This document shows, piece by piece, positions 7,792 through 17,340 of a stretch of DNA of 18,442 nucleotides (position 1 is its first letter; each line of letters opens with the position of its first letter). The notes under the pieces were generated by a model, which saw only the letters and a list, made by a program, of their open reading frames with translations, had not been told where the DNA came from and did not search any database. Origin of the DNA: Brachybacterium sp. (lineage in GTDB: Bacteria > Actinomycetota > Actinomycetes > Actinomycetales > Dermabacteraceae); the NCBI GenBank assembly GCA_027322375.1, contig DAHVRS010000415.1, forward strand, positions 1 through 18,442. Reading direction: 5' to 3'. The position numbers and the translations under genes were made by a program.

Positions 7792-7853
7792 GCTTCCACG
7801 CCGAAGGTGCCTCCCTGAGCACGATGACCGGGGAAGCCCCCGATCAGCCGCGA

Positions 7854-7904
7854 CGGACCACCCGGTCCGCCGCGTCGCACGCCGCGGACCCCGTTTCAGG
7901 GTCC
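7854..7904 (+). promoter_or_regulatory. Four-segment alternating hairpins in the mtl leader
   Basis: Segments A CGGACC (7854-7859), B GGTCCGC (7864-7870), C GCGGACCC (7884-7891) and D GGGTCC (7899-7904) can pair A:B (6 bp, 4-base loop), B:C (7 bp, 13-base loop) or C:D (6 bp, 7-base loop). B:C excludes both others, the topology of an attenuator. D ends 11 bases before the ribosome site GAGGA (7916-7920). No T-run follows, so any effect would be on translation, or the palindromes could instead be protein-binding sites on DNA. Confidence 0.4.
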
Positions 7905-7925
7905 CGCCCGTCAGCGAGGATGGCT

Positions 7926-9986
7926 ATGACCACTACGACCGAGACCAAGAGCGGATTCTCTCCGCGGGTCGCTCTCCAGAAGGTCGGCACATCACTGTCC
8001 AACATGGTGATGCCGAACATTCCCGCGCTCATCGCGTGGGGCATCCTGACCGCCTTCTTCATCCCGGATGGCTGGACGCCGAACGAGCCGCTCGCGAGCG
8101 TCGTCGGCCCGATGATCCACTACCTGCTCCCGCTGCTCATCGCGAACACGGGCGGCCGCATGGTCTACGAGGCGCGCGGCGCCGTCGTCGGCGTCATCGC
8201 GACCATGGGTGTGATCGGCGGCTCGGACTGGCTGATCGCGCAGGAGAACGCGAAGCTGCTCGAGGAGTGGGTGGCCGCCGGCAACGAGGCCGCGGACTAC
8301 GCCGACCTCGGCCAGGTCCACATGTTCATCGGCGCGATGATCATGGCGCCGCTCGCGGCCTGGCTCATGAAGAAGCTCGACCGGCTGTGGCAGGACCACA
8401 TCCCCGCCGGCTTCGAGATGCTCGTGAACATGTTCTCCGCCGGCATCTTCGGCTTCATCATGCTGGTCGCGGGCTTCTTCGGCCTCGCCCCTCTCGTGAA
8501 CGGCCTGATGACGCTGCTGTCCGACGGCGTGGCCGCACTCGTGAACGCGGGCCTGCTGCCGCTGGTGTCGATCCTCATCGAGCCCGCGAAGGTCTTCTTC
8601 CTCAACAACGCCATCAACCACGGTGTGCTGACCCCGCTGGGCATCAGCGAGGCGGCGATCGACGGCAAGTCCGTGCTGTTCCTGCTCGAGGCCAACCCCG
8701 GCCCGGGCCTCGGCATCCTGCTCGCCTTCTCGATCTTCGGCCGCGGCGCGGCGAAGGCCTCCGCACCGGGCGCCGCGATCATCCACTTCTTCGGCGGTAT
8801 CCACGAGATCTACTTCCCGTACGTGCTCATGAAGCCGATCCTCATCCTCGCCGCGATCGGCGGCGGCATGACCGGCGTCGCGATCAACGTCCTGTTCAAG
8901 ACCGGCCTCATCGCCCCCGCCTCCCCCGGCTCGATCATCGCGATCTTCGGCGTCGCCGCGCGCGACTCCTACCTGGGCATCGCCCTGGCCGTCGGCGGCG
9001 CAGCGCTCGTGAGCTTCCTGCTCGCAGCCCTGTTCCTGAAGATCGGCAAGCAGGATGACGGCGACATCGCCGCCGCCACCGCCAAGATGGAGCAGATGAA
9101 GGGCAAGAAGTCCTCCGTCGCCGGTGCCCTGACCGGCGCGGACGCCGGTGCCGGCGCTGCTGCTGCAGCCGACGCCTCCGGCCACACCGGCCCGATCTCG
9201 AAGATCGTCTTCGCCTGCGATGCGGGCATGGGCTCCTCCGCCATGGGCGCGACCGTGCTGCGCAAGAAGGTGCGCGCGGCAGGCTTCCACGACGTCGAGG
9301 TCACCAACAAGGCGATCTCGAGCCTGAACGACGAGTGGGACATCGTCGTCACGCAGAAGGAGCTCACCGACCGCGCCCGCCAGCGCACCGGCTCCGCCGT
9401 GCACGTCAGCGTGGACCAGTTCATGAACTCCCCCCGCTACGACGAGGTCGTGGACCTGGTCCGCAGCCGCAACAGCGGTGAGGCCCCGGCAGAGGCTGCG
9501 GCGGCAGCCCCGGCGGCGGCAGCCGCCCCGTCGGCCGATGCGTCCTCCGACGCGGCGCCGATCCTCTCCCCCGCCTCGATCGTCCTGGACGGCACCGCGC
9601 GCGATGCGGCCGCCGGCATCGACGAGGCCGGCGCACTGCTCGTCGCAGCAGGCGCCGTGGACGAGGGCTATGTCCGCGCCATGCACGACCGCGAGGCGAC
9701 GGTGTCCACGTTCATGGGCAACGGCCTGGCGATCCCGCACGGCACCAACGAGGCCAAGTCCTCGATCACCCGCTCCGCGATGTCCTTCGTCCGCTACCCG
9801 GGCGGCATCGACTGGAACGGCAACCCCACCACCTTCGTGATCGGCATCGCCGGTGTCGGCGACGAGCACCTCTCGCTGCTGCAGAAGGTCGCGATGACCT
9901 TCTCCGATCCCGCGAAGGTCAGCCAGCTCGAGAAGGCCACCACTGCCGAGGAGATCCTCGCGATCCTCGGCGACGAGGAGGAGTGA
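7926..9986 (+). CDS. mtlA: PTS mannitol transporter, fused EIICBA
   Basis: A 686-residue three-domain permease that imports mannitol while phosphorylating it to mannitol-1-phosphate. EIIC spans about residues 10-370 with many membrane helices, including [14 protein letters not shown] near the N terminus and [19 protein letters not shown] follows a Gly/Ala linker: [14 protein letters not shown] carries phospho-cysteine Cys431. A second Ala/Pro-rich linker leads to EIIA, with phospho-histidine His605 in [13 protein letters not shown]. The start at ATG 7926 is chosen over ATG 7920 because GAGGA (7916-7920) is correctly spaced only for the former; an extension to ATG 7824 lacks a ribosome site and would cover the leader hairpins. 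The mannitol-1-phosphate dehydrogenase gene follows after 7 bases. Phosphate would arrive from the HPr encoded downstream. No mtlR regulator is in the window. Confidence 0.96.
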
Positions 9987-9993
9987 GCATCTG

Positions 9994-11133
9994 ATGAAGG
10001 CAGTGCATTTCGGAGCCGGGAACATCGGCCGCGGCTTCGTGGGGCTCCTGCTCCACGAGGCCGGCTACGAGGTGGTGTTCTCGGACGTCGCCGCACCGCT
10101 CGTCGAGGCGCTGCAGCAGGCGGACTCGTACACCGTGACGACCGTGGGCCAGCACCCCTCGACCACGGTCGTCGACGGGTTCTTCGCGATCAACTCCGCG
10201 GAGGACCCCGAAGGGCTCACTGCCCAGCTCGCGGACGCGGACATCGTCACGACCGCCGTGGGCGTGCGGATCCTCCGCTTCGTCGCCCCGGCGATCGCCG
10301 CGGGGATCGCGGCCCGTCCCGCGGGCGCGCCCCGCGTGGCGGTCCTCGCCTGCGAGAACGCGATCAACGCGACCGATGAGCTCGAGGCCCTGGTGCGCGA
10401 GGCGTACCAGGGCGATGACCTCGACGAGCGCGCCCTGTTCGCGAACACCGCCGTGGACCGCATCGTGCCGGTCCAGGCGGAGGGCGCGGGCCTGGACGTC
10501 ACCGTCGAGGACTTCCACGAGTGGGCCGTCGAGCGCGGCCCCTTCGCGGGTGCCGAGCCGGACGTCCCAGGCATCACCTGGGTGGACAGCCTGGGCCCGT
10601 ACATCGAGCGGAAGCTGTTCACGGTGAACACCGGCCATGCCACCACGGCCTGGCACGGCTGGGCCGCGGGGCACGCGACGATCGCGGAGTCCATCGCGGA
10701 CCCGTCGATCCTCGCCCGCGTCGAGCAGGTGCTCGGCGAGACTAGCGCCCTGCTCGAGGCGAAGCACGGCTTCTCCGCCGAGGAGATGACCGCGTACCGC
10801 ACGAAGGTGCTGGCCCGCTTCGCGAACACCTCGCTGCCGGATCCCGTGGACCGTGTGGGTCGCGGCCCGCTGCGCAAGCTGTCCCGTCACGACCGGATCG
10901 TCGGCCCCGCCGCCGAGCTGGCCGAGCGCTCCCTCGCGCACGACGGGCTGCTCGGCGCATTCGACGCGGCGCTCGGCTTCGCCCCCGAGGGCGATGCGGA
11001 GGTCACGCGCCTGCAGGAGCTCCTGCGCGGCACGGACGCCGACGCCGCGACCGCGGAGATCACGGGCCTCGAGCCCGGCCACCCGCTGTACCCGGAGGTG
11101 CGGGCGCTCGTCGCAGCCCGCCTCGCCGGCTGA
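9994..11133 (+). CDS. mtlD: Mannitol-1-phosphate 5-dehydrogenase
   Basis: A 379-residue cytoplasmic enzyme that oxidises mannitol-1-phosphate to fructose-6-phosphate with NAD. The N-terminal nucleotide-binding motif is [11 protein letters not shown] (residues 5-15). The long-chain polyol dehydrogenase signature [16 protein letters not shown] covers about 207-222, with Lys207, Asn212 and His215 at the usual active-site positions. Length is close to that of the Escherichia coli enzyme. The ribosome site GGAGGAG (9977-9983) lies inside the end of the EIICBA gene, and only 7 bases separate the two genes, so they form one operon. The pair covers uptake and entry into glycolysis. Confidence 0.97.
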
Positions 11134-11198: not shown

Positions 11199-11471
11199 AT
11201 GGCAGAGCGCACCGTCAAGATCGCCAGCGCCTCCGGGCTCCACGCCCGCCCGGCCGGCATCTTCGCCCAGGCCGCCGCTGAACAGCCCGCATCCGTCACC
11301 ATCGAGAAGGCCGGCGGCAACGCTGTGCAGGCCTCGAGCATGCTCATGCTCATGACCCTCGGCGCCGGTCACGGCGACGAGGTCACCCTGCGCGCGGAGG
11401 GCGAGGGGGCCGAGGAGTCGGTCGCCGCTCTCGCGGCACTGCTGGAGAAGGACCTCGACGCGGAGGCGTGA
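11199..11471 (+). CDS. ptsH: Phosphocarrier protein HPr
   Basis: A 90-residue HPr, the small cytoplasmic carrier that takes phosphate from enzyme I and passes it to EIIA domains. The active site is His15 in ASGLHARPAG. Ser46 in AVQASSMLMLM matches the regulatory serine position of other HPr proteins, but the usual Lys before it is Ala. No HPr kinase gene is in the window, so its use is unknown. AAAGG (11184-11188) lies ten bases before the ATG. The gene follows mtlD by 65 bases, with a likely promoter in between, and converges on the enzyme I gene. Confidence 0.96.
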   Translation: MAERTVKIASASGLHARPAGIFAQAAAEQPASVTIEKAGGNAVQASSMLMLMTLGAGHGDEVTLRAEGEGAEESVAALAALLEKDLDAEA

Positions 11472-11550: not shown

Positions 11551-13269
11551 TCACAGGCCCAGCTCGCCGAGGATCGGCAGGCCCGCACGGACGAGGCTGT
11601 TGGCCTCCTCCGCGGTGCGGGCGGAGACGGCCTTCACCGCGAGCTCGCGCGCCTGCTCGAGGGTGACGGTGGAGAGCACCTTCGCGACCGCGGGCAGGGA
11701 GCGCGGGGTCATCGAGAGGCTGTTCACGCCGAGACCGACGAGCACTACGGCGAGGCCCGGATCACCCGCGGCCTCACCGCAGACGCCGACGGGCTTGTTC
11801 GCGCTCTCGCCGAACGCCTCCGGGTCGCCGCCCGCGGCGCGCGCCCCGTCGCAGGTCGCCTTCACGAGCGCGAGGACGGCCGGCTGCCAGGGGTTGTTCA
11901 GGTGGGCGAGAGAGCCCAGCTGGCGGTCCGCGGCCATCGTGTACTGGGTGAGGTCGTTCGTGCCGATGGACACGAAGTCGCAGGCGGCGAGGTGCCGGTC
12001 CGCGGTGACAGCGGCGGCGGGCGTCTCGACCATGATCCCGGCCGGCTCGAGGTCGCGCTCGCGGCACAGGGCCGCGAAGTCCTCGGTCTCGGTGACCGTC
12101 GCGATCATCGGTGCCATCACCCACGGCTTCGCGTCGGTCTGCTTCGCAGCAGCGGCGATCGCGTCGAGCTGGTTGGTCAGCACCGAGCGCTTCTCCCAGG
12201 AGGTGCGGTAGGCGCGCACGCCGAGGGCCGGGTTCGGCTCGTCGGCGTCGGTGAGGAAGGGCAGGGGCTTGTCCGCGCCCGCATCGATCGTGCGGACCAC
12301 GACCTTCTTCCCGGCGAGGTGCTGGAAGGTCTCGACGTACGCGGCGGTCTGCTCCTCGACGCTCGGCTCGTCCTCCCGGTCCAGGAAGAGGAACTCGGTG
12401 CGGAACAGGCCCACGCCGTCGGCGTGCGCGGCGGCGGCCTTCTCGGCATCCTTCGCACCGCCGATGTTGGCGAGCAGCTGCACGCGGGTGCCATCGGAGA
12501 GGACTCCGCCGCCGCCCTCGTAGGTCAGCGGGTTCTTCTGCAGCTCGGCCCAGGCCGCGGCGAAGCGGTGGTGCTCCTCGGTGACCTCGTCGGTGATGGT
12601 GCCGTAGCCGGCGTCGACGAACACCTCGGTGCCGTCGGCGAACTCGTGGATGCTCTTCGCGGCGACGATCGCGGGCAGGCCCAGCTGGCGGGCGAGGATC
12701 GCGGTGTGGGACTGGGGGCCGCCGTCGGAGGTGACCAGGGCCAGCACGCGGCTCGGGTCGAGGGTGGCGGTGTCCGCGGGCGCGAGGTCGATCGCGGTGA
12801 GGATGAAGGGCTCGTCCACCTCGGGGATGCCGGGGGCCTGCTCGCCGCGCAGCTCGGCGACGATGCGGGCGCGCACATCGCGGACGTCGGTGGCGCGCTC
12901 GGCCATGTAGCCGCCCAGCCCCTCGAGCATGGCGGCGACCTGGTCACCGGCCTCCCACACGGCGCGTTCCGGTGACTTCCCGCCCGAGGTGACCAGGCCC
13001 TGCGCGGTCTGGCTCAGGGAAGGATCAGCTGCCATCTGGGCGGTGGCCTCGAGGATCTTCTTGCCCTCTCCCGGAGCCCGCTCGGCCAGGCGGCTCAAGG
13101 TGGCCTGCACCGCGGCGGCCGCGGCGGGGATGCGCGCGGCCTCGGTCGCCGGGTCGGCGCCCTCGGGGATCGTGTCGCCGGCCGGGGGCTCGGCGACGGG
13201 GGGCGCCATCGAGTAGATCGTGCCGATCACACGGCCCGGGCTGACGGCAACACCTGTGTACTGGGACAT
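11551..13269 (-). CDS. ptsI: PTS enzyme I (phosphoenolpyruvate-protein phosphotransferase)
   Basis: A 572-residue enzyme that takes phosphate from PEP and transfers it to HPr. It starts with VAVSPGRVIGTIY. The phospho-histidine is His188 in TSDGGPQSHTAILARQLGLPAIVA. The C-terminal PEP-binding barrel shows GLFRTEFLFLDR, FVSIGTNDLTQYTMAADR and PVGVCGEAAGDP, the last holding the catalytic cysteine. Length is normal for the family. The ATG at 13269 has GGGAGGGGAC upstream on minus. It converges on ptsH across a shared terminator, whereas many bacteria carry ptsHI as one operon. It is general PTS machinery, so its place beside the mannitol genes may be organisational, not functional. Confidence 0.97.
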   Translation of the reverse strand: MSQYTGVAVSPGRVIGTIYSMAPPVAEPPAGDTIPEGADPATEAARIPAAAAAVQATLSRLAERAPGEGKKILEATAQMAADPSLSQTAQGLVTSGGKSPERAVWEAGDQVAAMLEGLGGYMAERATDVRDVRARIVAELRGEQAPGIPEVDEPFILTAIDLAPADTATLDPSRVLALVTSDGGPQSHTAILARQLGLPAIVAAKSIHEFADGTEVFVDAGYGTITDEVTEEHHRFAAAWAELQKNPLTYEGGGGVLSDGTRVQLLANIGGAKDAEKAAAAHADGVGLFRTEFLFLDREDEPSVEEQTAAYVETFQHLAGKKVVVRTIDAGADKPLPFLTDADEPNPALGVRAYRTSWEKRSVLTNQLDAIAAAAKQTDAKPWVMAPMIATVTETEDFAALCRERDLEPAGIMVETPAAAVTADRHLAACDFVSIGTNDLTQYTMAADRQLGSLAHLNNPWQPAVLALVKATCDGARAAGGDPEAFGESANKPVGVCGEAAGDPGLAVVLVGLGVNSLSMTPRSLPAVAKVLSTVTLEQARELAVKAVSARTAEEANSLVRAGLPILGELGL

Positions 13270-14401: not shown

Positions 14402-15402
14402 GCTGTCGGCTCTCGCTCGTGGTCGGTGGTGGCGGCCAGCGCCTGGTACAGGTCCTCGGGGATCTCGACGTGGGTGCGGGGCGGCCTGCGTCGGCCGACG
14501 TCGATCCCGAACCGCTCGTGCAGCCGGAGCAGGTGCGTCTCGGCGCGCTCCTCGTAGCCGGGGTCGAAGGCGGTGGGGTCGATGGCCGCGATGAACAGTC
14601 CCAGGCGCGGTGAACGCGAGCCGGTGTCGAAGGGGGCGGCGTCCAGGGAGAAGGACCCGCCCGACATCGCGGCGAGCAGCTCGATCATCATCGCGATGTT
14701 CGCGCCCTTGTCGCCGCCGAAGGGCAGCAGCGCCCCGGTCAGGGCCGCTGCCGGGTCGATGGTCGGCTGTCCGTCGGCGTCCAGTGCCCAGCCGGGCGGG
14801 ATGTGCTCGCCGCGCTCGGCGGCCTGCCGGATGCTCACGAAGGCGGTCGCGCTGCTGGCCTGGTCGAACACGCGGGGGCCGGAGCTGTGCGGCAGGGCGA
14901 AGGCGAGCGGGTTGGTGCCGGTGACCGCTTCGGTGGAGTCGTAGGCGGCCATCAGCGCCGGAGAGTTCCCGCACACCAGGGCGATGAGTCCCTGCTCGGC
15001 GAGGCGGGTGGCGAAGTGGCCCAGCTCCCCGCCGGGGAAGGAGTCGTGGATCGACAGCACGGCGACGCCGCAGCTGCGGGCCGCCTCGACGAGGCAGTCC
15101 GCGGCGTGGTCGAAGGCCAGTTGGGCGGCGCCGCGATCCGCATCGACGGTCAGGGCGGCGGCTCGGCGGTGTGTGAGGCGGGGCCGGGCCGTGCCGTTCA
15201 GTCGTGTCGTGCGCAGCGCATCGAGGTAGTCGACCAGGTGGGCGGCCCCGACCGCGCTCTTGCCGCGACGTTCGGCGGCGACGGTCGCGGTCGCCAGCGA
15301 GGAGGCCAGCTCGGGCGATCCGCCTGCCGCGCGGACGGCATCGGCGCACAGTCGTTCGAGCTCGGGCAGGGACAGCAGACGGGTGGGATGCAGGGAAGCC
15401 AT
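14398..15402 (-). CDS. Ldh2 (malate/L-lactate dehydrogenase type) oxidoreductase
   Basis: A 334-residue protein of the Ldh2 fold, which includes delta1-pyrroline/piperideine-2-carboxylate reductases, ureidoglycolate dehydrogenases and malate dehydrogenases using NAD(P)H. Visible blocks are VTGTNPLAFALP, FDQASSATAFVSI, and GALLPFGGDKGANIAMMIELLAAMSGG near residues 218-245. The N-terminal motif normally read as RGxxSHG is RRGKSAVGAAHL (45-56), so the conserved catalytic Ser-His is Ala50-Val51. Coupling to a proline-racemase-family gene suggests hydroxyproline or cyclic imino acid metabolism, where such a reductase turns pyrroline-2-carboxylate into proline, but the lost His makes the reaction uncertain. 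The start at ATG 15402 has only a weak ribosome site; it begins 21 bases after the erm stop on the same strand. Confidence 0.85.
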   Translation of the reverse strand: MASLHPTRLLSLPELERLCADAVRAAGGSPELASSLATATVAAERRGKSAVGAAHLVDYLDALRTTRLNGTARPRLTHRRAAALTVDADRGAAQLAFDHAADCLVEAARSCGVAVLSIHDSFPGGELGHFATRLAEQGLIALVCGNSPALMAAYDSTEAVTGTNPLAFALPHSSGPRVFDQASSATAFVSIRQAAERGEHIPPGWALDADGQPTIDPAAALTGALLPFGGDKGANIAMMIELLAAMSGGSFSLDAAPFDTGSRSPRLGLFIAAIDPTAFDPGYEERAETHLLRLHERFGIDVGRRRPPRTHVEIPEDLYQALAATTDHEREPTA

Positions 15403-15423
15403 GTCCGCTCAGGCTATCGGTGA

Positions 15424-16182
15424 TCACCGGAGCCGGAACGCCTCGGCCCAGTGCGCCGGGTCCACGGTGCGCGGCAGCTGCGCGGGCCGGTAGCCGTGGC
15501 GGCGGCAGAATGCGCGGGCCCGGCCCGCCGGCAGCTCTCCGCTGCGCTGCAGGATCTCCTGCAGCCCGCGCCCTCGCCCGGTGAAGATGCGGCGGACGAA
15601 CTGCTGGTATGCGCGCTGCTCCCGCAGCGACAGCAGCGGCTCGCCGCGGCGGTGGATCAGCAGCAGACCGGAGTCCACGCCGGGTCGCGGCCGGAAGGCC
15701 GAGGCGGGCACCCGACGGTCCAGGATGAATTCGAACCAGGGCCACCACTGGGCGGTCATCAGTGTCGCCCCGCCCACTGCGGCGCGTTTGCGGGCGACCT
15801 CCCACTGGGTCATCAGCACCGCCCGCTCCCAGCCGCGCCGGGTCAGCAGGTGACGCAGCGCCGCAGTGGTCAGGTGGTAGGGCAGGTTGGCGACCAGGGT
15901 GGAGCCTGCGGGCGGGTTGTGTCGCAACAGGTCGCCGTGTCGCACGGTGACGTGCGGGCCGAGCCGGCGGGCGAGCTCGGAGGCCGCGCGCTGATCGATC
16001 TCGATCGCCTCGAGGGGTCGGCCGAGCTCGGACAGGGGGACGGTCAGCGCTCCGTCTCCTGGGCCCCATTCGACGATCGGGCCGTCGCGGCGGGCGGCGA
16101 GTTCCACGATGCGGGCGATGGTGCGGCGGTCGCGGAGGAAGTTCTGGCCCAGTTCATGGGCTCCGGGATGGTGACGAGGCAC
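15424..16182 (-). CDS. Erm-family 23S rRNA (adenine-N6) methyltransferase
   Basis: A 252-residue SAM-dependent methyltransferase of the Erm family, which methylates A2058 of 23S rRNA and gives macrolide-lincosamide-streptogramin B resistance. HELGQNFLRDRRTIARIV (9-26) is the family N terminus; motif I is EWGPGDGALT (38-47), motif IV is NLPYHLTT (99-106), and TAQWWPWFEF (143-152) with VPASAFRPRPGVD marks Erm as opposed to the KsgA housekeeping dimethylase. GTG 16182 is the start, with AGGAG (plus 16188-16192) five bases upstream. It is preceded by a leader ORF and hairpins suggesting drug-induced translational control, and is followed after 21 bases by the Ldh2-type gene. It looks complete, with no adjoining transposase or integrase. 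The exact erm class cannot be set by eye. Confidence 0.93.
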   Translation of the reverse strand: MPRHHPGAHELGQNFLRDRRTIARIVELAARRDGPIVEWGPGDGALTVPLSELGRPLEAIEIDQRAASELARRLGPHVTVRHGDLLRHNPPAGSTLVANLPYHLTTAALRHLLTRRGWERAVLMTQWEVARKRAAVGGATLMTAQWWPWFEFILDRRVPASAFRPRPGVDSGLLLIHRRGEPLLSLREQRAYQQFVRRIFTGRGRGLQEILQRSGELPAGRARAFCRRHGYRPAQLPRTVDPAHWAEAFRLR

Positions 16183-16226
16183 GAGGGCTCCTGGGATGGT
16201 GCGGGGCCGGGCAGCAGGACGGGCCG

Positions 16227-16242
16227 CCCGGCAGGGGCCGGG
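16227..16242 (-). promoter_or_regulatory. Second hairpin between erm leader ORF and erm start
   Basis: CCCGGC (16227-16232) and GCCGGG (16237-16242) form a 6-bp stem with a 4-base loop. The competing pair 16226-16232 with 16206-16212 (7 bp, 13-base loop) excludes it. Next to it, the minus-strand GCTCC (plus 16241-16245) can pair with GGAGC of the erm ribosome site (plus 16187-16191), a possible way to hide that site. Confidence 0.5.
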
Positions 16243-16274
16243 AGCGGCGCGAGATCGTCCAGAGGGTGGTGAAG

Positions 16275-16305
16275 CGGATCCGCGCCGTCAGCGGCGGCGG
16301 ATCCG
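16275..16305 (-). promoter_or_regulatory. Attenuator hairpin overlapping the erm leader ORF
   Basis: On minus, CGGATCCGC (16305-16297) pairs perfectly with GCGGATCCG (16283-16275). Inside, GCCG and CGGC add four pairs beyond one bulged C, closing on the loop CTGA, which contains the leader stop codon TGA. The upstream arm contains the Arg-Ile-Arg codons of the leader, so a ribosome halted there would open the hairpin. Confidence 0.7.
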
Positions 16306-16329
16306 GATGAAGATGGCGTTGATACCCAC
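16288..16329 (-). CDS. Erm leader peptide MGINAIFIRIRRR
   Basis: A 13-codon ORF from GTG 16329 to TGA 16290-16288, 105 bases upstream of erm. It holds Arg9-Ile10-Arg11, the Arg/Lys-X-Arg/Lys type of motif at which macrolide-bound ribosomes stall in leaders such as ErmD and ErmX; from memory the ErmX leader carries a similar FLRLR segment. No ribosome site precedes the GTG, but a possible promoter places the transcription start at or beside it, so translation may be leaderless. A longer in-frame start at TTG 16365 is possible. This ORF is inferred from position, motif and RNA structure, not from homology search. Confidence 0.65.
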   Translation of the reverse strand: MGINAIFIRIRRR

Positions 16330-16336
16330 GAGGAAA

Positions 16337-16365
16337 ACGGTACAGGCACCGGCTGCGACCGGCAA
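16337..16365 (-). promoter_or_regulatory. Candidate promoter of the erm leader transcript
   Basis: On minus, TTGCCG (16365-16360) and TACCGT (16342-16337) are 17 bases apart, and the leader GTG starts seven bases after the -10, as expected of a leaderless transcript. The -10 matches only 3 of 6 positions. A short AT-rich GAATTC (16368-16373) lies just upstream of the -35, where WhiB7 sites are found in actinobacteria; this last point is inference. Confidence 0.4.
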
Positions 16366-16521
16366 CGGAATTCTCGGGCACCGGCGCCGCGGGGATGAAC
16401 GCGGATCACACCATGCGCCGGCGGACTCGACGCGGGAGGGGCACCGGGGGAAGACTCGGGAGGGGACAGGGCAGGACGAAGGACCGGCGAGGGCCGGCGA
16501 GAAGACCCCGAGGAGACCGTC

Positions 16522-17340
16522 ATGAGCACCAGCGACCCATCGTCCGACGCCGCAGCCGTCAACCCCGCCTGGCAGGAGTTCCGGATCCGGCGCGAGCAGG
16601 GCCTTTCCGCGCCGCACGGGGTGCTCGCGCAGGTGGCCCTGCACTGGATCGAGCCCGGCGCCGACCCGCAGACCGTCCCGGGGGTGCCCGGACAGTGGCA
16701 GCTCACCGCGGACCGGCTGACGGTGACCTGGGAGGGTGAGCAGCTGCGGCTGCTCACCGGGTCACCCGAGGTGGAGGCCGGTGACCAGGACGGGACCCAG
16801 CGCGCCACCGTGCTCTCCGCGGCCGATGTGCGCCTGGCCCGCTTCGGGGACGAGGTGGAGATCGAGGTGATCCGGCGCGGGGGTCGCACCGGGCTGCGCA
16901 TCCTGGACCCCTCGGCCCCGCGCCTGACCGGTTTCACCGGCGTCCCCACCTACCCCTACGACCCCGAACTGGTGGTCACCGGCATCTGGACCGCCCGGCC
17001 CGCCATGGTCACCGTCGGCGCCGCCCTGCCGTGGCTCGAGCACGAGCTCCCCTCCCCCGGGGTCGCCACCGTGGAGATCGGCGATCGAGGGCTGGATCTG
17101 GTGCTGACCGGGGAGTCCAGCATCCTGTTCACCGATGGGACCTCGGGGTCGACGAGCGCGGACTGGCGTGTGGTCAACGCGGAGCTGGACGGGGAGGCGA
17201 TCCGGCTGGACCTGAACTACGCCGTCAACCCCCCGGCGGCTTTCAGCGCCTGGGCGACCTGCCCGCGTCCACCGCACGGGAACCACATCCCGGTGCCGGT
17301 GCGCGCCGGGGAGCAGCGGGTCGAGCAGACGGAGCGGTGA
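16522..17340 (+). CDS. DUF1684 domain-containing protein
   Basis: A 272-residue protein of unknown function. It shows the DUF1684 pattern: WQEFRIRREQGLSAPHGVLAQVALHWI at the N terminus, GGRTGLRILDPSAPRLTGFTG in the middle, YPYDPELVVTGIW, and the C-terminal LDLNYAVNPPAAFSAWATCPRPPHGNHIPVPV, which matches the family's NPPCAF..CPLPP..N type ending with the first Cys replaced by Ala. No signal peptide or membrane segment is seen, so it is likely cytoplasmic. AGGAG (16511-16515) lies six bases before ATG 16522. It is divergent from the erm leader and converges on a tRNA-Ser gene; the neighbourhood gives no functional hint. Confidence 0.86.
   Translation: MSTSDPSSDAAAVNPAWQEFRIRREQGLSAPHGVLAQVALHWIEPGADPQTVPGVPGQWQLTADRLTVTWEGEQLRLLTGSPEVEAGDQDGTQRATVLSAADVRLARFGDEVEIEVIRRGGRTGLRILDPSAPRLTGFTGVPTYPYDPELVVTGIWTARPAMVTVGAALPWLEHELPSPGVATVEIGDRGLDLVLTGESSILFTDGTSGSTSADWRVVNAELDGEAIRLDLNYAVNPPAAFSAWATCPRPPHGNHIPVPVRAGEQRVEQTER

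Follow-up and report, generated by a model that had tools for sequence, protein, structure and literature searches.

How is the erm gene of this Brachybacterium controlled, and does the stretch ahead of it act as a drug-responsive switch? The gene lies in a window of 18,442 nucleotides (the whole stretch of DNA analysed), which belongs to the MAG G000 (2.68 Mb, 74% complete), of the same genus as G015. It occupies positions 15424-16182 of the minus strand, starts with GTG at 16182 and encodes a 23S rRNA (adenine-2058) N6-methyltransferase of 252 amino acids. The product passes the broad NCBIfam Erm model NF000499 (236.8 bits, cut-off 212), matches the specific Erm46, Erm38 and Erm55 models below their cut-offs and matches Erm(38) (7f8a) with an E-value of 5.2e-78. 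Its ribosome site, AGGAG at 16192-16188, is located ahead of the GTG, about 100 nt beyond the leader hairpin described below. Elsewhere in the window, inspection of the ORF list by eye pointed to a tagaturonate-epimerase-type protein (577-2082) and to a mannitol PTS block (7824-9986, 9994-11133, 11199-11471 and 11551-13269) with a transporter and mannitol-phosphate dehydrogenase-like, HPr-like and enzyme I-like proteins.

An earlier note on this DNA had described a 13-codon ORF upstream of erm, a 9+4 bp hairpin with Arg-Ile-Arg (RIR) codons in its ascending arm and the stop codon in its loop, and a GCTCC segment able to pair with the erm ribosome site. The leader ORF, VGINAIFIRIRRR-stop, is indeed present at 16329-16288 on the minus strand and ends with TGA (16290-16288); four of its last five codons encode Arg. 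Its first codon had to be corrected: it is GTG in the window and ATG in the corresponding locus of Ca. Brachybacterium merdavium (L003), which indicates that the start is kept at this codon. This start coincides with the predicted transcription start. In the minimum free energy (MFE) fold the hairpin (16275-16305, minus strand; helix 1:2) consists of 9 bp (16305-16297/16283-16275) and 4 bp (16295-16292/16287-16284), separated by a bulged C at 16296, and its loop (CUGA, 16291-16288) contains the stop codon. In the same MFE fold of the window, GCTCC (16245-16241) pairs with the GGAGC (16191-16187) that belongs to the erm ribosome site. The fold of 16150-16330 reached -74.8 kcal/mol compared to -64.35 +/- 4.16 kcal/mol in 200 shuffled sequences (z -2.51), two of which were equally good. 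An Rfam scan of 15900-16600, carried out for the window and up to E 5, gave no family match. Leader and hairpin are present in front of erm, as the note had observed.

The window and L003 are 99.6% identical over the 4756 bases compared, with 17 differences. Just four differing bases fall within 15400-16600 (16410, 16344, 16329 and 16205), all upstream of erm and none inside it; 16329 belongs to the leader start codon and one of the four lies in segment 5 (see below). These upstream differences may be errors of the MAG.

Erm relatives were gathered from named genomes and from the family and order of the window, using tblastn anchors. Removal of five duplicates or near-duplicates (L003, L046, L049, L057 and L085) reduced 101 loci to 96, from Streptomyces, Actinomadura, Amycolatopsis, Mycobacterium/Mycolicibacterium, Prauserella, Leucobacter, Agromyces and others. 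Excluded were L043-L045 (32-39% identity, titles not Actinomycetota) and L002 and L061-L074, which were assumed to be KsgA-like (34-39% identity, E about 6e-20 to 1e-14). Further family and order matches (34-40% identity, best E 2.9e-30) stayed outside the survey, except G016:C90, which is L119. A leader was counted when an ORF of 8-30 codons started 6-8 nt after a TANNNT motif, at most 420 nt from erm (less at contig ends); the stricter criterion additionally demanded an end of the form R-x-R, zero to four residues and stop.

By these definitions 87 of the 96 Erm loci have a leader, and 83 have one with R-x-R, leaving 13 without the strict form. The same search accepted 3.5% and 0.36%, respectively, of dinucleotide shuffles (n = 1920), 5 and 2 of the 96 reverse complements, and 6 and 1 of 1130 other windows from these loci (both strands counted). 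Since 83 of 96 loci stand against 0.36% of shuffles and a single one of the 1130 other windows, the leader is not a chance occurrence. When the promoter was disregarded, an ORF ending R-x-R-y-z-stop was still found in 85 of 96 loci. The leader is widely conserved among homologous erm loci, and the comparison that the note had named as a check came out in favour of its reading.

Several leader types were noticed on the way. Six loci (L039, L087, L090, L093, L112 and L118) have distinct leaders ending IIRPRTA or VIRPRTA, placed 8 nt past the -10, with an AT box matching 1-3 of 6 positions. A large group (many of L092-L116; L058-L060, L077, L080, L091, L101, L105 and L111) has leaders of 19-22 residues, mostly beginning MGT and ending RDRRA, RHRSA or similar; some of their spacers to erm are about 300 nt long. 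In L053 and L157, relatives of the MLFYGTASLRLRSR leader type, the start and stop rules applied here yielded no intact short leader ORF. A search of viral contigs for Erm relatives found none. A gapped DNA pattern that combined the leader hairpin with segment 3 proved too strict for a survey of uses outside erm and gave two matches in 394 genomes, fewer than a control read backwards: L159 precedes an Erm, and L158 (in G713), with no Erm in the 3 kb covered, is possibly a chance match. The Brachybacterium form of the pattern matched only the window and G015 among 47 genomes, in part because its gap was too long for other species.

The leaders share a nearly fixed register. Although zero to four residues were allowed after R-x-R, exactly two (R-x-R-y-z-stop) are present in 81 of 83 leaders. 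In these 81, the first Arg is encoded by CGC (22), AGG (20), CGT (20) or CGG (18), with one Lys codon (AAG), and the second by CGC (76), CGT (4) or CGG (1). Residue x is L (24), D (16), I (12), T (10), P (8), H (8), E (1) or G (1), and y and z are variable. Because the first Arg is spread about equally over four Arg codons, codon usage indicates that the R-x-R peptide is under selection.

Upstream of the leader, the minus strand carries a -10-like TACCGT (16337-16342), which ends 7 nt ahead of the leader start, a -35-like TTGCCG (16360-16365) at a distance of 17 nt from it, and, 3 nt further upstream, an AT-rich WhiB7/WblC-like box AGAATT (16369-16374) matching 4 of 6 positions of GAAAWY. GAAAWY, placed 3 nt upstream of the -35, is the WblC consensus box given in PMC7157823, which puts most transcription starts at WblC promoters of S. 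coelicolor 7 or 8 bp past the -10. Among the 87 leaders, searched at 6-8 nt, the distance between TANNNT and the start codon is 7 nt in 71, 6 nt in 9 and 8 nt in 7; without a promoter filter the distances also peak at 7 nt (68), followed by 16 nt (15). The start codon is ATG in 74 and GTG in 13, and in 99% of the 71 loci with 7-nt spacing it is preceded by C. With WblC transcription starts mostly 7-8 bp past the -10, the first nucleotides of the mRNA would be those of the start codon. The -10 spacing thus predicts that the leader is translated from a leaderless mRNA, and "apparently leaderless", as the note had put it, was a fair reading.

The box and the TTG of the -35 together score 7 of 9 in the window, and TANNNT is present. 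A score of at least 7 of 9 was obtained in 48 of 87 loci compared to 0.41% of base-shuffled upstream stretches, and L052, with 9 of 9, is stronger than the window. About half of the leader promoters resemble WhiB7 targets, as judged by these motifs. A WhiB7-like protein, identified with a query ending in the RGRGRPRK tail, was matched in 13 of the 16 genomes searched, including G015; in this set it was not found in the 74% complete G000, nor in G039 and G041. The WhiB matches L132-L134 in G015 were rejected as WhiB7, none of them having an RGRGRPRK-type tail. In G000 no WhiB-family protein at all was found, while all 42 other genomes of the same search have them; incompleteness of the MAG is probably the cause, though this is odd for a genome 74% complete. 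The leader of G039 and G041 resembles that of Erm(X) but lacks R-x-R (MLISGSVFMRPLTSR), and the box matches 2 of 6 positions (L056). A large group in the order of the window has an R-x-R leader without an AT box, so that the leader and WhiB7 layers are separable.

Between leader and erm, the RNA can be divided into further segments, all on the minus strand: segment 2 (GACGGCGCGGATCCG, 16275-16289), segment 3 (GATCTCGCGCCGCTCCC, 16240-16256), segment 4 (CCTGCCGGGCGGCC, 16222-16235), segment 5 (CCTGCTGCCCGGCCCCGCAC, 16199-16218) and segment 6 (16186-16201), which contains the ribosome site AGGAG. Segment 3 can pair with 2, with 4, or via GCTCC with the ribosome site. The six segments downstream of the leader recur in 38 loci chosen by eye (37 of the 96 and L003), picked for a similar-looking downstream stretch and reduced to 24 representatives at less than 85% identity. 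The other 59 of the 96 loci, including all mycobacteria and most RDRRA-, RHRSA- and RPRTA-type loci, lie outside this test, which therefore gives no estimate of the frequency of the six-segment layout. As the register of the helices differs from clade to clade, column-based counting of pairs was replaced by a register-independent permutation test (5000 permutations), in which the pairing energy of each locus with itself was compared to pairings between loci.

Pairing within a locus was better than the mean across loci for helix 2:3 in 23 of the 24 representatives and for helix 5:6 in 20 of them, and for both none of 5000 permutations was as good. Uncorrected p values, from loci that share ancestry, were 0.003 for 1:2 and 0.016 for 3:4. 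Among the ten non-neighbouring pairs, 3:6, which is the anti-ribosome-site pairing, gave 0.013 and 1:6, counted among the control pairings, gave 0.017, the other eight ranging from 0.10 to 0.999 (uncorrected). A repeat with 16 hand-picked loci again gave 0 of 5000 for 2:3 and for 5:6, with p values of 0.003 (3:6), 0.023 (1:2) and 0.030 (3:4); the control pairing 4:6 reached 0.10 with 24 and 0.023 with 16 loci. Helix 4:5 is strong and nearly invariant (p 0.26) and can for this reason not be tested by co-variation. The predicted 5:6 pairing of the window (-7.6) is weaker than in four other representatives of the genus (-10.6 to -13.3). The competing helices 2:3 and 5:6 co-vary in the hand-picked subset. 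Together with 4:5 and the WhiB7-like promoter, they are additional to what the note had described.

A ribosome covers 16 nt counted from its P-site codon. With the P site placed on residue x, the modelled leading edge lies 1 nt beyond the stop codon in 76 of 78 loci. The fixed register would follow from this position, because a ribosome stalled there would cover segment 1 and leave nearly all of segment 2 free. Of the 87 loci, the 78 that have R-x-R and a recognised ribosome site were used to model the effect on this site. The comparison of folds with and without a footprint, proposed earlier as a check, was neutral for the window: at equilibrium, access to the erm ribosome site rose from 0.21 to 0.27 only, and GCTCC was still paired with the site in the stalled model. 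Across the 78 loci, access rose by more than 0.2 in 15, fell by more than 0.2 in 4 and changed less in 59. The rising loci include seven named mycobacteria and three loci of the same genus (L058-L060); clear rises in mycobacteria were seen, for example, in L016 (0.03 to 0.76) and L027 (0.00 to 0.54). A crude co-transcriptional model (16 loci, two thresholds) freed the site wholly once (L005, threshold 12); several mycobacteria rose or fell depending on the threshold, and the window went from 3 to 3 or from 4 to 3 of 5 paired bases. Neither the equilibrium nor the crude co-transcriptional model demonstrated that the window's ribosome site is released, and the details of the switch are for this reason drawn from its relatives.

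We consider it likely, with a probability of roughly 0.7, that the stretch in front of erm is an R-x-R-class translational attenuator inducible by drug. The note's reading of an inducible switch is supported in this sense, with stalling and induction deduced rather than observed. A WhiB7-type promoter would produce an mRNA starting at the leader start codon. Without drug, a ribosome would complete the 13 codons and depart, and hairpin 1:2 would re-form; segment 3 would pair with segment 4 and/or the erm ribosome site, segment 5 would also pair with the site, and erm would be poorly translated. By analogy with ErmDL, a ribosome carrying a macrolide or ketolide would stall when Ile10 occupies the P site and Arg11 the A site. 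With its edge 1 nt past the stop it would sequester segment 1 and leave segment 2 almost entirely available, upon which 2:3 would form, 4 would pair with 5, and the erm ribosome site would be released. This last step is supported by co-variation among the relatives and not by the folding models of the window. WhiB7 would set the amount of mRNA and the leader the efficiency of its translation. Drug-bound ribosomes are probably halted by the Arg-x-Arg peptide, and erm is switched on in this way.

A variant release scheme is compatible with this attenuator. In it, 4:5 is a permanent spacer hairpin and segment 3, through GCTCC, alone hides the site until it is drawn off by 2:3, in the manner of ErmC. 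The MFE fold of the window contains 1:2, 4:5 and GCTCC:GGAGC, the 3:6 pairing reached p 0.013, and site access clearly increased in some mycobacteria (L016, L027). However, co-variation of 5:6 is stronger than that of 3:6, and in the stalled equilibrium model of the window GCTCC remains paired with the site. We regard this four-segment variant as plausible, though less likely than not.

Control could also be exerted by transcription only, WhiB7 switching erm on and the leader being a passive relic or a non-sensing ORF at the start of the transcript. The AT-box score of at least 7 in 48 of 87 promoters fits this, and so do published statements that WhiB7 acts directly on erm41 of M. abscessus and that erm(37) departs from the uORF scheme. 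On the other side, R-x-R is maintained through codon turnover, its register is nearly fixed, the leader is kept in loci without an AT box, and helices 2:3 and 5:6 co-vary; we judge this explanation unlikely. Premature termination of transcription instead of translational control has a precedent in whiB7 itself, described as controlled by a uORF and a terminator. In a scan of 16100-16540, however, the sole terminator-like hit lay over the -10 (16351-16338), with none between leader and erm, and the 3' helices involve the ribosome site, which makes termination very improbable. Four Arg codons among the last five of the window's leader might suggest that the leader senses a shortage of arginine and not a drug, but in the set of 81 leaders no residues other than the two Arg of R-x-R stay (nearly) constant, x, y and z being variable, and this idea appears, if anything, still more remote.

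Beyond the attenuator itself, we tentatively propose, at somewhat less than even odds, that the window represents an actinobacterial family of erm leader RNAs, without an Rfam match for the window. Its members would have a leaderless, drug-sensing leader on which ribosomes start right at the mRNA's 5' end; roughly half of the loci would be doubly gated by WhiB7 and R-x-R stalling, helices 1:2, 3:4 and 5:6 would alternate with 2:3 and 4:5, and the length of the ribosome footprint would set the register R-x-R-y-z-stop. Should this layout prove correct, a drug-sensing leader without a ribosome site of its own would be present in most of the actinobacterial Erm relatives surveyed (83 of 96). It would qualify the view of WhiB7-controlled erm as an exception to leader control, expressed in PMC4128351. 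It would also provide a natural test case for the behaviour of macrolide-bound ribosomes on leaderless mRNA, and the conserved register yields a sharp prediction of the stall position. The combination of leaderless-type start, fixed register, WhiB7 box and helix chain did not come up in searches of an open-access library from which most subscription papers are absent.

Erm attenuators are textbook biology, mainly built on Firmicutes, and the R-x-R leader class as such comes from earlier work on erm leaders. The ErmC attenuator uses an IFVI-type stall and four segments, unlike the window, where there are as many as six segments and the start is of the leaderless type. It resembles our proposal in that, according to PMC6685928, the methylase's ribosome site becomes exposed when the ribosome stalls. 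ErmDL, of the +X+ class, shares the R-x-R motif (RLR), and its stalling is the mechanism assumed here; according to PMC8298421, the P site of the stalled ribosome holds X (Leu7) and its A site the second Arg. There, RLR occupies residues 6-8 and the ORF continues, whereas in the window two residues and the stop follow. Of the ErmD/ErmX kind named in the note, the ErmX part fits better than ErmD, where RLR lies at residues 6-8 of a longer ORF. The uORF attenuator of whiB7 is likewise actinobacterial and antibiotic-responsive, but acts by termination and not by hiding a ribosome site, and its uORF is described with a Shine-Dalgarno motif.

Closer likenesses are found among actinobacterial Erm leaders. 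The leader of the Rhodococcus Erm(46) plasmid (VGNTNIAVTEFRRF) starts with GTG and has Glu at the first position. Erm(36) of Micrococcus luteus pMEC2 (L153; MGSPSIAVTRFRRF) is inducible. Its leader lies 7 nt from the -10, shows the register R-F-R-R-F-stop and has, as read from its sequence, complementary arms around the stop, all as in the window; it differs in being plasmid-borne, in its ATG start and in its peptide. The Erm(X) leader of Corynebacterium (L155, pLEW279a; MLISGTAFLRLRSNR) is a short ORF 7 nt after TANNNT with R-x-R near its end, followed by a downstream core CCGGGCGG...GCCCGG and then Erm, as in the window, but with an ATG start and three residues after R-x-R instead of two; its genomic relatives L056, L084 and L089 match only 2-3 of 6 box positions. 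PMC3350403 suggests that the leader peptide gene of erm(X) might act by erythromycin-inducible translational attenuation. Because the Erm(36) and Erm(X) leaders share its layout, the window belongs with the known R-x-R leaders.
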